Source: Rhodovulum marinum
Lineage (GTDB): Bacteria; Pseudomonadota; Alphaproteobacteria; Rhodobacterales; Rhodobacteraceae
Direction of reading: 5' to 3'
DNA: 64,000 nucleotides
NCBI RefSeq assembly: GCF_004343075.1
Contig: NZ_SLXP01000002.1
Coordinates: 186,001-250,000 of the forward strand
In this document: piece after piece, positions 41,089 to 46,995 of the stretch
Numbering within the stretch: the stretch's first letter is position 1
Layout: every line of letters starts with the position of its first letter
Made by a program: the position numbers and the translations under genes
Notes under the pieces: model-generated
Seen by the model: the letters and a program-made list of their open reading frames with translations, nothing else
Database searches by the model: none
What the model was told of the DNA's origin: nothing

Positions 41089-43008
41089 TCAGCGCGTCCG
41101 CGCCTCGCGCTTGCGGATCGGATCGGCCAGCAGCCGCAGACCGTTCAGCACGACCAGAACCGTGCCGCCCTCGTGCCCGACGACCGCGACGGGCAGCGGC
41201 AGGTGGAAGAACAGCCCCGTGGTCACCAGCACCGCCATCGCGCCCATGGCGAAGATCAGGTTCTGGCGGATGATGCGCGCGGTCCGCCGCGCCAGACGGT
41301 GCGCCGCGGCCAGGCGGGCGATATCATCGGACAAAAGCGCCACGTCCGCGGCCTGCAGCGCGACCTCGGACCCGGCCGCGCCCATCGCGATGCCGACATC
41401 CGCCCGCGCAAGCGCCGCGGCGTCGTTCACACCGTCGCCCACGAAGGCCACGCGCCCCTGCGCCGTCAGGTCGGCCACGATCCGAACCTTGTCCTCGGGC
41501 CGCAGGTCGGCATGGATCTCGGCCGCACCGATCCCCAGTTCCGCGCCGATGCGTTCGGCCACCGCGCGCCGGTCCCCGGTCAGCATCGTCACCTGCCGCA
41601 TCCCGCGGTCGCGCAGCGCCTTCAGGCCCGCCAGCGCGCTGTCGCGGGGCCGGTCCTCGACCGTCACCGCGCCCAGGATGCGCGCCCCGCGCCCCATGAG
41701 GACCAGGGTCTGGCTGCCCGCGTGCAGCGCGTCGATCCGGGCGGAGCGCTGCGCGGGCGCGTCGCGGGCGCCCATCCGTTCGGCCATGCGGACATTGCCG
41801 GCCCAGATCATGCCCTCGTCATCCACGCCGACCATGCCGGCGCCGGGCACCGCGCGAGCCTCGCGCACGGCAGCCGGCACGATCTGCCGTGCCTCGGCCA
41901 CGCGCCGGATCGCGTCGGCGATCGGGTGCTCGGAATGGGCCTCGATGCCTGCCAGCCGGGACAGGAACGCGGTCTCGTCGCCCTCGCAGGCGATGTCCAC
42001 CACTTCCTGGCGCCCGGTGGTCAGCGTGCCGGTCTTGTCGAAGGCAAAGATGTCGACGCGCGCCAGCGTTTCCAGCGCCGCGCCGCCCTTGAACAGCACC
42101 CCGCCCCGCGCCGAGGCCGACAGCGCCGAGAGGATCGCCGCGGGCACCGAGATCACGATGGCGCAAGGACTGGCCGCGACCAGAAGCGTCGCCGCCTTGT
42201 ACAGCGCGCCGTGCCAGCCCAACCCCAGCGCCATGAACACGGCGAAGGCCAGGATCGCCCCGGCGAGGACCGCGACGGTATAGCGCTGGCCGAACCAGTC
42301 CGAGAACCGTTCCGAGGGCGCGCGGGCCGCCTGTGCCTCGGTCACCAGGGCGATCATCCGGGCAACCGTGCTTTCGGACAGCGGCCGGCTGACCTCGACG
42401 GCCAGTACGCCGTGCAGGTTGACCGTGGCCTCGAAGACCTGCGCACCGGGCGATTTGTGGACCGGCACGGATTCCCCGGTGATGGTGGATTCGTCCAGCG
42501 ACCCCTCGCCCTCGACGATGACGCCGTCGACGGCCACCCGCGCGCCGGGGCGCAGGATCACCACGTCGCCGGGGACCAGCGCCTCGACCGGCACCTCTTC
42601 GGTGCCTTGGGCGGTGCGGCGCAGCGCCCGGTCCGGGCGCAGTTCCATCAGCGCCTCGATGGCGCGGCGCGCCCGGCCCATGGCCCGCTGTTCCAGCGTG
42701 GTCGACAGGCTGAACAGCGTCAGCAACACGGCACCTTCAAGGGGCGCGCCCACGGCCGCCGCGGCGATTGCGGCGATGACCATCAGAAGGTCGATGTCGA
42801 GGTCCCGGTCCCGCCACAGGGCACCCAACGCCCGCACGCCCGCCGGAACGCCCCCGGCGGCGTAAACCCCCAGCAACGCGGCGATTTCCAGCGTGTGGGC
42901 GACGCGGTCCGCGGGCAATGCCCAATGCGCCACCGCAGCAAGGCTCATGCCCGCCAGGGTCAGCCCGGTCAGGACCAGCGGCCAGCTCTCGTTGTTCAAC
43001 TTCGTCAT
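41089..43008 (-). CDS. P1B-4-type heavy-metal ATPase
   Basis: A 639-residue metal-exporting P-type ATPase. There is no N-terminal metal-binding domain. The membrane motif SPC (residues 280-282) and the HEGGT motif in the last helix (612-616) define the P1B-4 group (CoaT, CtpD, PfeT; Co2+, Fe2+ or Zn2+ export). The TGES loop, phosphorylated Asp in DKTGT (324-328), SEHP and GDGVNDAAAL are intact. The metal is not decided by sequence. Convergent with doeB; the cytochrome genes lie upstream in the same direction. Confidence 0.9.
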   Translation of the reverse strand: MTKLNNESWPLVLTGLTLAGMSLAAVAHWALPADRVAHTLEIAALLGVYAAGGVPAGVRALGALWRDRDLDIDLLMVIAAIAAAAVGAPLEGAVLLTLFSLSTTLEQRAMGRARRAIEALMELRPDRALRRTAQGTEEVPVEALVPGDVVILRPGARVAVDGVIVEGEGSLDESTITGESVPVHKSPGAQVFEATVNLHGVLAVEVSRPLSESTVARMIALVTEAQAARAPSERFSDWFGQRYTVAVLAGAILAFAVFMALGLGWHGALYKAATLLVAASPCAIVISVPAAILSALSASARGGVLFKGGAALETLARVDIFAFDKTGTLTTGRQEVVDIACEGDETAFLSRLAGIEAHSEHPIADAIRRVAEARQIVPAAVREARAVPGAGMVGVDDEGMIWAGNVRMAERMGARDAPAQRSARIDALHAGSQTLVLMGRGARILGAVTVEDRPRDSALAGLKALRDRGMRQVTMLTGDRRAVAERIGAELGIGAAEIHADLRPEDKVRIVADLTAQGRVAFVGDGVNDAAALARADVGIAMGAAGSEVALQAADVALLSDDIARLAAAHRLARRTARIIRQNLIFAMGAMAVLVTTGLFFHLPLPVAVVGHEGGTVLVVLNGLRLLADPIRKREARTR

Positions 43009-43107: not shown

Positions 43108-43548
43108 TCAGTCGTCCTCGAAATAGCCGCGCTCGGCACCCTTGTGGCAGGCCACGCAGTTCGACATCGATTTGGCGCGCTCCATCATCCGTGCGGAAAC
43201 CTCCCTTTCATGTTCGCGCTTGAACCAGGGCAGTTCGCTGATCCGCAGCGGCGTGGCGGTTTCGGCCACGCCCCGGACCCGCGGCGCGGCGTTCGAAACC
43301 AGGTAAGCCTCGATCTCGGCGCGGGTCGCCTCGTCCAGGCGTGCGTCCTCGCCGAAATGGTTTTCCAGGTTGCCCATGATCGCCTGCCAGGACCGCGCGG
43401 GCAGGAAGCCCGCGGGATAGGCCATGTGGCAGGCCGAGCATTCCTCGGCCGTGGCCGGATGTGTGACGGGCGGCATGTAGTCGTCGTCGGCCAGCACGGG
43501 CGCGGCCGGGAACGCAAGGGCCAGGATCAGGGTGAAACGGCGGATCAT
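43108..43548 (-). CDS. Diheme cytochrome c (DHC)
   Basis: A 146-residue periplasmic protein with a signal peptide (cleavage after VLA, residue 20) and two heme c motifs, CSACH at 37-41 and CVACH at 131-135. The first is followed by MAYPAGFLPARSWQAIMGNLENHFGED, matching the DHC family that donates electrons to SHP. It is clearly paralogous to the C-terminal half of the cytochrome b fusion two genes upstream. It follows the shp gene by 17 bases. Confidence 0.92.
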   Translation of the reverse strand: MIRRFTLILALAFPAAPVLADDDYMPPVTHPATAEECSACHMAYPAGFLPARSWQAIMGNLENHFGEDARLDEATRAEIEAYLVSNAAPRVRGVAETATPLRISELPWFKREHEREVSARMMERAKSMSNCVACHKGAERGYFEDD

Positions 43549-43565
43549 GGTCGGTCTCCTCGGGA

Positions 43566-43964
43566 TCAGAAGCTGGCGAGCCAGGCGACGATGTTCGCCT
43601 TTTCGGCGGCGGTGCAGTCGCGGCCCAGCACGCTGTTGCAGTTGCGGCCGAACCATTTCTCGACCTTGGCGCTGTCGGTCAGGCGCTCGGGGTTGGCCGC
43701 GGGCGCCAGCGGCTCGATGGTCTTTCCGGTGCGGGCCTGCCCGGCGGCGCGGGGGTCGCTGGTGTGGCAGGTGACGCAGGACGGCGTCTCGGGCTTGCCG
43801 CCCGAATGCTCGGCCAGGAAGAACGCCTTGCCCGCTGCGGGATCAGCGGCAGCGCCGGACTCGGCCTCGTACCCGGAGCGGAGTTGGGCGGGCGAGGTGT
43901 CCTGGGCAAGCGCCGGTACCGCGGCCGCGGCGAGGATCAGGGGAAGCGCAAGAAATCGGGTCAT
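43566..43964 (-). CDS. shp: Oxygen-binding cytochrome c SHP (DUF1924)
   Basis: A 132-residue protein with a signal peptide (MTRFLALPLILAAAAVPALA), one heme motif CVTCH at 63-67 and the SHP segment KWFGRNCNSVLGRDCTAAEKANI. SHP has an unusual Asn sixth ligand, which dissociates on reduction so that O2 or NO can bind; Asn108 in RNC is the likely equivalent, with Cys109/Cys117 as the disulfide. Its ATG overlaps the stop of the cytochrome b-DHC gene. Confidence 0.92.
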   Translation of the reverse strand: MTRFLALPLILAAAAVPALAQDTSPAQLRSGYEAESGAAADPAAGKAFFLAEHSGGKPETPSCVTCHTSDPRAAGQARTGKTIEPLAPAANPERLTDSAKVEKWFGRNCNSVLGRDCTAAEKANIVAWLASF

Positions 43965-45076
43965 TTGGGGGTCTCCTTCGGGATTTCGATGGCAAAGGGA
44001 CTGAAGCGGCCCGTCGCGGCATCCGCGTGGCAGGCCGCGCAGTTCGCGCGGGTGAAGATCGGGGCCCGGGCGAACAGCCCGTCGGGCAGGTCGTCGTGCA
44101 ACCGTTCCCAGGCCGGGGTTTCGGTCAGTGTGGCCGGGGCGGCCGGATCGGTGCGGACGAACAGGCGCGCGGGCGCGGTATCGACCGTCTCGGCGGCATG
44201 GGCGGTCAGCCAGGCCTCGATCTCGGCGGCGTCGCCGGCGTCGATCCAGGCGTTCTCGCCGAAATGGGCGTCGAGCCCGGCCATCAGGTCCGACCACGAG
44301 GCCGCGGGCAGCAGGCTGGGGTGATAGACCATGTGGCAGGCGCCGCATTCCTGGGCGGTAAGCGGGTCTGTCACGGCGACCGGCAGGTTCGGCGCCGGCC
44401 GCGCCGACAGCGTCGCGCCCCCCAGCCCGAGCGCCGCGCCAAGCCCCGCGACGAGCCCGAGAGCGAGCCCGCCGCGGGCGCGCGCCGGGGCGACGGGGGC
44501 ATCGCCGGGGCGCGCTTGCTTGCGGCCCGTCACCATCGCGCGGGCGAGGTTCTCGCCTTCGCGGCGGCTTTCGAAGACGACGCCGCCGACATGCAGGGCG
44601 ACCAGGGCCAGCACGCCAAGTGCAACGCCCCCGTGCAGGTCCAGCGCCATGCGCCCGGTATCGGTGCCGAGATCGGCCGCCAAGGGACCGATGCGCAGCC
44701 AGCCGCCCAGCCCTGCCAGCCCCGTCCCCGCAAGCGCGAGGATCGCCGCGAACAGCGCCAGCACCATCAACGCCCCCAGCGGATTGTGCCCGCGATGGCG
44801 CCGATCCCGCCCGGAAAGATGCGCGATCACCGCGCCGGGGCGCGGCAGGAAATCGGCGAACCGGGCATGGGTCGGGCCGAAGACACCCCAGACGATCCGC
44901 GCCAGCACCAGGCCGGTCGCCGTCAGCCCGCTTGCGACATGGACGAGGGTCCATCGTGCGTCGCCCAGGAAACCGGTCAGGGCGGCGGCCCCGACGCCCA
45001 GGACCAGCGCCCAGTGGAACAGGCGCACCCAGATGTCCCAGGCCGGGACGTAAGAGACAGGGGTGGGTCGGGACAT
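43961..45076 (-). CDS. Cytochrome b561-diheme cytochrome c fusion
   Basis: A 371-residue protein. Residues 10-180 form a four-helix cytochrome b561 with candidate heme histidines in LFHWALV (21), LVHVASG (46), DLHGGVA (148) and ALHVGGV (162). A linker and a fifth helix (about 201-222) lead to a periplasmic diheme domain with CGACH 244-248 and CAACH 346-350, homologous to DHC. It likely takes electrons from quinol and hands them to DHC/SHP. ATG 45076 is preferred; ATG 45103 would add nine residues. Confidence 0.88.
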   Translation of the reverse strand: MSRPTPVSYVPAWDIWVRLFHWALVLGVGAAALTGFLGDARWTLVHVASGLTATGLVLARIVWGVFGPTHARFADFLPRPGAVIAHLSGRDRRHRGHNPLGALMVLALFAAILALAGTGLAGLGGWLRIGPLAADLGTDTGRMALDLHGGVALGVLALVALHVGGVVFESRREGENLARAMVTGRKQARPGDAPVAPARARGGLALGLVAGLGAALGLGGATLSARPAPNLPVAVTDPLTAQECGACHMVYHPSLLPAASWSDLMAGLDAHFGENAWIDAGDAAEIEAWLTAHAAETVDTAPARLFVRTDPAAPATLTETPAWERLHDDLPDGLFARAPIFTRANCAACHADAATGRFSPFAIEIPKETPK

Positions 45077-45147
45077 CGGTTGGCCTGTTCCTGGGGTCGA
45101 CATGGAGCGGTCTTCGCATGGCTGGGCTGACGGCGGCCTGCCCGGGG

Positions 45148-45165
45148 CTGTCAGCGTTCTGTCAG
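45148..45165. promoter_or_regulatory. Tandem CTGTCAG repeat in the divergent spacer
   Basis: CTGTCAG occurs twice with a 4-base gap, an 11-base period (45148-45154 and 45159-45165). This is the layout of binding sites for OmpR/PhoB-type response regulators. It lies about 45-70 bases upstream of the cytochrome b gene and about 140 bases upstream of the oxidase gene, so it could control either or both. No regulator gene is close by. Confidence 0.4.
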
Positions 45166-45305
45166 CGGGACGGCGGCGCGCGTCTGCGCGCACGCCCCTC
45201 TCACCGCGCAATCACGCTTGCGTGGGCGGGCGGTCCGAACTGTCGCACCCGCATTGACCGGGCGTGTGCCGGAATAGCTCTGCCCGAAACAACGTGGAGA
45301 CCCCA

Positions 45306-45941
45306 ATGTTCGACAATACCGACCGGCCCGACCTCGACCTTACCACCCACAAGCCGCCCGCCGATCTGAGCGACCGGATCGCGCTGCGGCTGGTCAAGGT
45401 CATGCGCGTCTTCGCCGACGCTTTTTTCGCCAAACGCTATGGCCACCGGGCGGTGGTGCTGGAAACCGTGGCCGCCGTGCCCGGCATGGTGGGCGGCATG
45501 TTGCAGCACCTCAAGGCGATCCGCCATATCCGCGACGACCAGGGCTGGATCCGCGAGTTGCTGGACGAGGCCGAGAACGAGCGGATGCACCTGATGACCT
45601 TCATCAAGATCGCGCAACCCTCGGCGCTGGAACGCGGGATCATCCTTGTCGGGCAGGCGCTGTTCTTCAACGCCTATTTCTTCCTTTACCTGCTGTTCCC
45701 GCGCTTCGCGCACCGGGTGGTCGGTTACCTGGAGGAAGAGGCGGTGATCAGCTACACGCAATACCTGTCGCAGGTCGACGCGGGCGCGGCCGAGAACGTG
45801 CCCGCCCCGCAACTGGCCATCGACTATTGGGGCCTGCCCACCGATGCACGCCTGCGCGAGGTGATCGTCGCCGTGCGCGCCGACGAGGCCGGCCACCGCG
45901 ACCGCAACCACGAAATGGCCGACGAACTGGCCGGATCCTGA
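45306..45941 (+). CDS. aox: Alternative oxidase (AOX), ubiquinol oxidase
   Basis: A 211-residue diiron membrane-surface oxidase that passes electrons from ubiquinol to O2 without pumping protons. All four motifs are present: LET (Glu53), NERMH (Glu92, His95), LEEEA (142-146) and RADEAGH (Glu194, His197). ATG 45306 has GGAGACC upstream. AOX is widespread in plants and fungi but sporadic in alphaproteobacteria. It is divergent from the cytochrome b-SHP-DHC genes. AOX enzymes are insensitive to cyanide and NO. Confidence 0.95.
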
Positions 45942-45951
45942 CCGGCGCCGT

Positions 45952-46326
45952 TCAGACCGGGTTCTGGGCGCCGGCGAAATACATCAGCCGCCCGTCCTCG
46001 TCGAAGATCGGGCGGATGCGCAGCCGGTTGACGAAGGGCGTGCCGTCCTTGCGGTAGTTCAGGATGTCGATGCTGAACCGCGTCTGCGCCCGCAGCGCGT
46101 GGCGAATCGCCTCGACCGCGTGGGGGTCGGTGTCCGGCCCCTGCAGGAAGCGGCAGTTCTGGCCCACCGCCTCGGCGGCGGAATAGCCGGTCTGCCGCTC
46201 GAATTCCTCGCTGACATAGATCATCGGGTTGTCGGGCAGGCCTGGATCGGAAATCACCACGCTCATTTCGCGTTCATCGCTTGCCAGAAGCGCCCGCGCC
46301 TCGTCCACCGTAAGATCCCGTCGCAC
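45952..46326 (-). CDS. Short LOV photoreceptor protein
   Basis: A 124-residue protein that is almost entirely one LOV (light-oxygen-voltage) PAS domain. The flavin-adduct motif GQNCRFLQG at 55-63 has the photoactive Cys58. Flavin contacts are visible in NYRKDGTPFVNRL (Asn90, Asn100) and in the Gln121 of FAGAQ. There is no output domain, so it would signal by protein contact or dimer changes, as proposed for short LOV proteins such as DsLOV of Dinoroseobacter. GTG start after GGGGAA. Convergent with aox, 10 bases apart. Confidence 0.93.
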   Translation of the reverse strand: MRRDLTVDEARALLASDEREMSVVISDPGLPDNPMIYVSEEFERQTGYSAAEAVGQNCRFLQGPDTDPHAVEAIRHALRAQTRFSIDILNYRKDGTPFVNRLRIRPIFDEDGRLMYFAGAQNPV

Positions 46327-46397: not shown

Positions 46398-46829
46398 TCA
46401 CGGCCGCGGCATCACCGTCATCATCCGCCCATCGCTCCAACTGACGGCCTCGTAACAGATTTGCGCCCCGGCCCCGCCGCACCAGCCGCCGTCGCGCGCG
46501 ATCAGCAGGATGGGCCGCCCGTTCCAGTCGATCATGCGCCAGCCCTCGGCCTGGAACGCCCAGGCCTGGCCGTCGATCACCGCGTGCAGCATGCACCCGC
46601 CCGACCCGCAATACATCGACGCCGCCGAGGAACACTCGAACCGGCTTTCGTCGATCAGCGTATCGAGATCACCATCGCCGTCCAGATCGACCGCCGCAAG
46701 CGCGTCGCCCTGCGAGAAGACGCCGTTCTCGTAATTCGCGCAAATCTCCCGCGCGGCGGCGATGATCCGATCGGCCCCGGCCGCTGCAACGCCCGGCAAG
46801 CAGATCGCTGCCAGACCGACGCCCCCCAT
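46398..46829 (-). CDS. Secreted hypothetical protein with a calcium-loop-like motif
   Basis: A 143-residue protein with a signal peptide (MGGVGLAAICLPGVAAA). DLDGDGDLDTLIDE near residue 50 is typical of EF-hand/FG-GAP type calcium loops. Six cysteines occur in the mature part, suggesting disulfides. ATG 46829 has GAAAGG 7 bases upstream; a TTG at 46844 would lengthen it. Same strand as the LOV gene. Function unknown. Confidence 0.75.
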   Translation of the reverse strand: MGGVGLAAICLPGVAAAGADRIIAAAREICANYENGVFSQGDALAAVDLDGDGDLDTLIDESRFECSSAASMYCGSGGCMLHAVIDGQAWAFQAEGWRMIDWNGRPILLIARDGGWCGGAGAQICYEAVSWSDGRMMTVMPRP

Positions 46830-46995
46830 GATCCAACCTTTCAAGGGCTTTCTCCATGCTCAGCGGCGGACCGGCCGCCCGTTAGGGAAATGCTGTTCCC
46901 TGACGCGCGCAGTTGCAAGCCCGCAGGGGCAAAACCGGCACTGGACGCCGCGCCGTCCATTCCTTATATCTTTTGTAGGATTTGCAGGAAACGCC

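Follow-up and report, generated by a model that had tools for sequence, protein, structure and literature searches.

Within a 64,000-nt window of the genome of Rhodovulum marinum (G000:C2:186001-250000, where G000 denotes the window genome; coordinates given below are positions within the window), a soluble dihaem cytochrome c (sDHC), the sphaeroides haem protein (SHP) and a cytochrome b561 fused to a membrane dihaem cytochrome c (CytB/mDHC) are encoded on one strand, with an alternative oxidase (AOX) gene divergent from them and a gene for a short LOV protein converging on AOX. This layout, as described in the initial annotation, is confirmed by Pfam matches and coordinates. The question which the locus raises is whether these five genes constitute one module, as was also proposed there, or have merely become neighbours. 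The favoured answer, to which a probability of about 0.8 is assigned, is that two separate and ordinary systems have come to adjoin each other in a single Rhodovulum lineage: an SHP operon that would be switched by the SK1 two-component system through a 39-bp box, and an AOX gene with its own neighbourhood and promoter.

The SHP operon and the 39-bp box in Rhodovulum

The SHP operon of Rhodobacteraceae has been described as consisting of CytB/mDHC, SHP and sDHC in that order, with the first of them a chimera (Meyer et al. 2010, PMC2909971), and the window copy shares with it the three genes, their order on one strand, the chimera and the W-x3-N-C...C pattern of SHP, while differing in that it is followed by a P-type ATPase and diverges from AOX. 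Judged by that paper and the family assignments, the three window genes are thus the known operon, and the electron path, proposed as quinol to CytB to DHC to SHP (PMC2909971), is not new; of the earlier claim, this quinol-fed branch agrees with the published proposal, and its joining with AOX into one module is not supported. According to the same source, reduced SHP of R. sphaeroides binds O2 and receives electrons from DHC, an NO dioxygenase activity has been reported, and SHP was described as the sole c-type haem protein for which O2 binding was known, its function and regulation being unsettled in 2010.

The proposed switch rests on a palindromic tandem repeat, CTGAC-N6-CTGAC-N7-GTCAG-N6-GTCAG, which was searched for with up to 3 mismatches over its 20 fixed positions in a genus set of 16 Rhodovulum genomes, G000 included. 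It lies 5' of the cytochrome b gene in all six SHP-bearing genomes (0-2 mismatches) and 5' of the genes for a PepSY protein, a response regulator and the SK1 kinase in six of the seven kinase-bearing ones (0-1 mismatch), kinases being counted at 58% identity or more and weaker matches being set aside in G005 (35%) and, as a second match, in G008 (37%). Seven of the 16 genomes have a site within 3 mismatches of the box, and exactly these seven also have the kinase. Among 2000 dinucleotide shuffles of the window spacer the best site had 4 mismatches, as compared with 1 for the real box; the number of sites expected in all 16 genomes is 0.004 at up to 1 mismatch and approximately 0.13 at up to 2, and a control pattern, the box read backwards, matched one place only, in G004.

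These genes, their synteny and the distribution of the box are read directly from the sequence, and they suggest a mechanism in which the SK1 two-component system, composed of the PepSY accessory protein, an OmpR-type regulator and the SK1 kinase, most likely switches transcription of the SHP operon, the regulator presumably binding the box 5' of the operon and 5' of its own genes and activating from there. The regulatory genes adjoin SHP in five Rhodovulum relatives; the window genome has them too (Orf1, response regulator and SK1), on contig C1 (G000:C1:245155-246492 and neighbours) and hence on a different contig from the SHP operon. Since they lie there, control in the window genome would be exerted in trans through the retained box.

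Seven further sites with up to 3 mismatches were found in the genus set, four of them before nifB, two identical ones on a single G003 contig and one, with 3 mismatches, in G004. The nifB sites, box-like with 1-2 mismatches, occur in four SK1-bearing genomes (L260:6195 in G004, L261:6096 in G010, L262:5749 in G011 and L264:6002 in G013); NifB was checked by model in three of these, and an adjacent NifA was identified by model in one. In G013 the block of cytochrome b561, PepSY, regulator and kinase genes is duplicated, boxes included, at approximately 2.445 and 3.166 Mb of contig C1 (L205, L092), the called frames being 99-100% identical, with one frame antisense to the kinase, and the SHP operon following one copy only.

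SK1 genes and the box outside Rhodovulum

The regulatory genes resemble the SK1/Orf1 group that accompanies SHP operons in Rhodospirillum, Allochromatium and Shewanella (PMC2909971) in having the same PepSY-type small protein, OmpR-type regulator and RSRSLWD-type kinase. The hallmark of SK1 is given as variations of SGVYWQ and RSRSLWD (PMC2909971), and the Rhodovulum kinases carry GLYWQ (G000, G003 and G010) together with RSRSLWD (G003 and G010) or RARSLWD (G000). The regulatory genes differ from that group in two genomes, G090 and that of the window, by being unlinked from SHP, the common box being the only tie. Whereas no regulatory genes were seen with Rhodobacteraceae SHP operons in PMC2909971, they accompany the operon in five of the six SHP-bearing Rhodovulum genomes, in G027 and G264, and on two Ruegeria plasmids.

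A family sample of 394 genomes, of which two are Rhodovulum, contains 10 other SHP loci, with regulatory genes nearby at two (G027 and G264) and the box at two, namely at both promoters in G027 and at the SHP promoter in G090 (two sites, one with 1 mismatch and one with 2). On the plasmids of Ruegeria THAF33 and YS9, a genus which the NCBI taxonomy places in the Roseobacteraceae, SHP and the regulatory genes are joined and boxes stand at both promoters, with 1 and 2 mismatches. On both plasmids (L328, L329) the SHP operon is complete and, together with the regulatory genes, precedes a Rieske-type gene; a copper P-type ATPase comes a few genes further along.

Scanned in full at up to 3 mismatches, the separate 943-kb replicon of G090 yields one box only, which precedes a 77%-identical regulator by approximately 410 bp; behind the box come a PepSY-like frame, the regulator and then a kinase of 47% identity with RSRSLWD. 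The other large replicon of G090 was covered around SHP, where the encoded protein contains all 110 residues printed for chain 1dw0, presumably the SHP of R. sphaeroides. The structure of R. sphaeroides SHP is cited in PMC2909971, where the SK1 genes of that species, Orf1 as RSP3510 and SK1 as RSP3512, are placed on chromosome II and SHP on chromosome I, with no known functional relationship; because the genes lie on different chromosomes, its authors could only suggest that SK1 may regulate SHP in Rhodobacteraceae. The box common to both sets of genes is evidence, drawn from comparison of promoters, for such a functional relationship. In the open-licence literature searched, PMC2909971 is the single work that joins these SHP-operon and regulatory terms, and the box may be described outside that literature.

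The neighbourhood of AOX and LOV

AOX is present in five of the 16 Rhodovulum genomes, SHP in six and LOV, counted at 80% identity or more, in ten; all five AOX-bearing genomes also have SHP, and G003 alone has SHP without AOX. In each of the five, a convergent LOV gene abuts AOX, with 13-25 bp between the matched ends. Beyond LOV lies SufT in nine of the ten LOV genomes, with SufA and TPI further on, and in the tenth, G010, the contig stops 288 bp past LOV. The start of LOV faces SufT in the relatives, and in the window genome a gene for a 148-aa protein intervenes, which is missing from the LOV-SufT gap (121-147 bp) of the eight other LOV genomes in which that gap is readable. By synteny, then, AOX and LOV belong to an AOX-LOV-SufT-SufA-TPI neighbourhood of Rhodovulum, and the genes beside AOX differ in other relatives.

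The constancy of the AOX-LOV pair in the genus might suggest that LOV controls AOX, giving the oxidase a blue-light input, and G230, from another genus, has two AOX genes, one of them with a LOV gene of 71% identity 3.3 kb away. This weak rival is very improbable, as LOV keeps the same LOV-SufT arrangement in five of the ten LOV genomes, all five without AOX; the two genes are convergent; among 80 named AOX loci only the Rhodovulum one has LOV, and the remaining 79 lack it (flanks up to 8 kb, some shortened by contig ends); and the short LOV protein of Dinoroseobacter controls photopigments, according to PMC4335406. The light input to a module that the initial annotation had entertained is weakened by the same observation, since LOV neighbours AOX in the genus yet holds its place without it. 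As to LOV genes elsewhere, fasciclin and pyridoxamine-oxidase-like genes are among those between LOV and AOX in G230 (G230:C13:463-4737, L251), and nine stretches with a short LOV from eight other genera have no gene pair common to most of them.

SHP stands beside AOX in the window genome only, that is, in one of the five Rhodovulum genomes with both. Of the remaining four, three have the genes on separate contigs, and the fourth, G013, has them 2.9 Mb apart on a 3.73-Mb contig, or 0.86 Mb by the short way if that contig is circular. Among the 394 genomes of the family sample AOX occurs in 37, SHP in 12 and both in three (two of them Rhodovulum), again adjacent only in the window genome. SHP was found at none of the 80 named AOX loci within the available flanks of up to 8 kb, and there is no overlap between 13 plasmid records with SHP and 21 with AOX; thus, in everything compared, no relative has AOX and SHP as neighbours. 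As AOX and LOV sit elsewhere relative to SHP in the relatives, the five-gene module is probably accidental, and the cluster most likely arose by an accidental rearrangement among known parts, its adjacency presumably functionless.

The manner of that rearrangement is suggested by the outer genes. A heavy-metal P-type ATPase, which the initial annotation had omitted, is a member of the same minus-strand block as the SHP operon. It also adjoins the SHP operon in G003 and G013, with neighbours of 83-84% identity in L091 and L092, and it was not found beside SHP in the available stretches of G004, G010 and G011; heavy-metal transport genes near SHP had been remarked on previously (PMC2909971). ArgE lies just beyond the ATPase in the window and directly abuts LOV in G002, and these positions are most simply read as an insertion of the ATPase-SHP block between ArgE and AOX in the lineage of the window genome.

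Promoters at the AOX-cytochrome b spacer

The AOX genes of Rhodovulum would be driven from promoter elements of their own. The elements TCACR-N4-CGTG and TTGACC lie upstream of all five, and the upstream regions of the four sister genes (approximately 320 bp) are free of the box repeats CTGTCAG and CTGACAG. Between the end of the box and the TTGACC of AOX there are 88 bp in the window, and therefore an influence of the box on the window AOX is conceivable. A scan for consensus promoters returned a sole promoter-like site, inside sDHC, and terminators scored no better than in shuffled sequence. Among 109 distinct AOX upstream regions, GNCGCA is found in 71 (shuffled mean 18; the window copy is at 45242) and GCG-N5-9-GNCGCA in 34 (shuffled mean 2.6), the latter resembling a degenerate GCG inverted repeat that PMC4263372 proposes for PrrA/RegA.

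The promoter elements and the synteny together decide against the original proposal, in which AOX and the SHP branch would be co-expressed from their common spacer and would both drain the quinol pool under nitric oxide (NO) or low O2. It draws on the divergence of AOX and cytochrome b across the common 202-bp spacer, on the co-variation of AOX and SHP in Rhodovulum, on NO induction of AOX in Sphingopyxis (PMC6472365) and on the NO dioxygenase activity of SHP mentioned above. Against this, the adjacency of the two genes is confined to the window genome, the divergent promoters carry different elements, with the box repeats wanting from the sister AOX regions, no FNR-type TTG-N8-CAA site occurs upstream of the five Rhodovulum AOX genes, and outside Rhodovulum SHP is found in 1 of 35 AOX genomes of the family sample (with the genes on different contigs) versus 10 of 392 genomes overall. 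A joint AOX-SHP-LOV module was rejected on these grounds of synteny and separate promoter elements, and co-expression from the spacer is accordingly rated as quite unlikely.

As to NO, a NirK model gave any match in five of the 16 genomes and exceeded its cut-off only in G009, a genome without AOX and without SHP. NO from the organisms' own denitrification was discarded as a cause on this result, NirS and NO reductase not having been searched. The open-licence literature searched contained nothing pairing AOX with DUF1924, AOX with the LOV domain and Rhodobacter, or Rhodovulum with AOX.

Observations against two separate systems

It has to be noted that several observations weigh against the reading of two separate systems. 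G003 lacks a full box before its regulatory genes; G008 (L204, G008:C19) has regulatory genes and a box but no SHP; and in the family sample eight of the 10 other SHP loci, that of G264 with its adjacent regulatory genes among them, have no box at up to 3 mismatches in the available stretches. ArgE, which was used to place the insertion, is missing from 17 of the 18 stretches searched, G002 being the only one to have it. Lastly, AOX and SHP co-vary across Rhodovulum (Fisher p 0.0014; p 0.001-0.006 in simulations given the AOX pattern), and therefore a functional tie that does not depend on linkage is possible.

Under such a tie, AOX and SHP would be kept or lost together as quinol drains, and their adjacency in the window would be a by-product. 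On an rpoB tree AOX needs 4 changes and SHP 5, their patterns differ at G003 only, and the bearers do not form one clade, all of which speaks for a common physiological role without a common gene order. When both traits are simulated, however, the probability ranges from 0.08 at the slowest rate tried to 0.002 at the fastest; the genomes number only sixteen and the co-variation was noticed post hoc; of the tree's 13 inner branches, 7 have good support and 5 were drawn open; and the rest of the family, with the counts given above, has no excess of the pair. This explanation is possible but rather doubtful. A broader version, in which the box marks a Rhodobacteraceae regulon running from SK1 to the SHP branch, plus nifB in Rhodovulum, with AOX a co-selected quinol drain for occasions when O2 meets a reduced chain and the window AOX perhaps captured by the box, is improbable by a wide measure.

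Genes and features of the locus

The features are collected in the following table.

Features of the locus, with positions in the window
Feature	Position	Strand	Evidence and remarks
Heavy-metal P-type ATPase	41089..43008	-	TIGR01525, E 3e-174; 3' of sDHC
sDHC, soluble dihaem cytochrome c	43108..43548	-	PF09626, E 6.9e-37; CSACH and CVACH
SHP, sphaeroides haem protein (DUF1924)	43566..43964	-	PF09086, E 6e-37; CVTCH, WFGRNCNSVLGRDC
Cytochrome b561 fused to membrane DHC (CytB/mDHC chimera)	43961..45103	-	PF01292 (1.1e-18) and PF09626 (6.9e-33) in a single chain
39-bp palindromic tandem box	45127..45165	-	one mismatch; about 24 bp 5' of cytochrome b start; predicted site of SK1-linked response regulator
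AOX promoter region	45212..45259	+	TCACGCTTGCGTG at 45212; GTCGCA at 45242; TTGACC at 45254, -35-like
Alternative oxidase (AOX), 211 aa	45306..45941	+	PF01786, E 3.7e-83
Short LOV protein, 124 aa, GTG start	45952..46326	-	GQNCRFLQ; PAS families (Pfam)
148-aa protein without family match	46398..46844	-	cysteine-containing; between LOV and SufT

SHP overlaps the cytochrome b561-mDHC gene by 4 bp at the SHP start, the AOX start and the cytochrome b start have 202 bp between them, and 10 bp separate the end of LOV from the AOX stop. In an alignment of the window SHP with nine homologues, the CxxCH motif is present together with W-x3-N-C...C, the pattern of the sixth-ligand Asn and the Cys pair; the best solved relative is chain 1dw0 (E 5.6e-47).

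The AOX was credited with all its iron ligands in the initial annotation, and an intact AOX is upheld by a score of 278.9 bits against a cut-off of 22.7 for its model and by E53, E92, H95, E143, E144, E194 and H197, which are unchanged across 20 aligned sequences and are taken to be the ligands of the di-iron site. It matches the solved mitochondrial AOX (E 1.2e-50) and is 61-89% identical to 19 AOX of the same class, with which it shares the model and the conserved Glu and His residues; only the neighbourhood, with a short LOV gene adjacent, sets the Rhodovulum AOX apart. The LOV protein consists of a LOV core with GQNCRFLQ and no effector domain, as in short LOV proteins, and its best match in the PDB is 4kuk (E 7.2e-55, residues 7-124 of 124 aligned), presumably the structure of DsLOV from Dinoroseobacter shibae.

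Significance

The locus illustrates that a tempting five-gene module can be the product of rearrangement, which calls for caution in inferring function from the gene order of one genome. What is new is a prediction, made from promoter sequences, that SK1 controls the SHP operon of Rhodobacteraceae through a defined 39-bp box, and would do so in trans in the window genome. With the box, the earlier suggestion of a link between SK1 and SHP becomes open to a specific experiment, and one for which a tractable purple bacterium is at hand.

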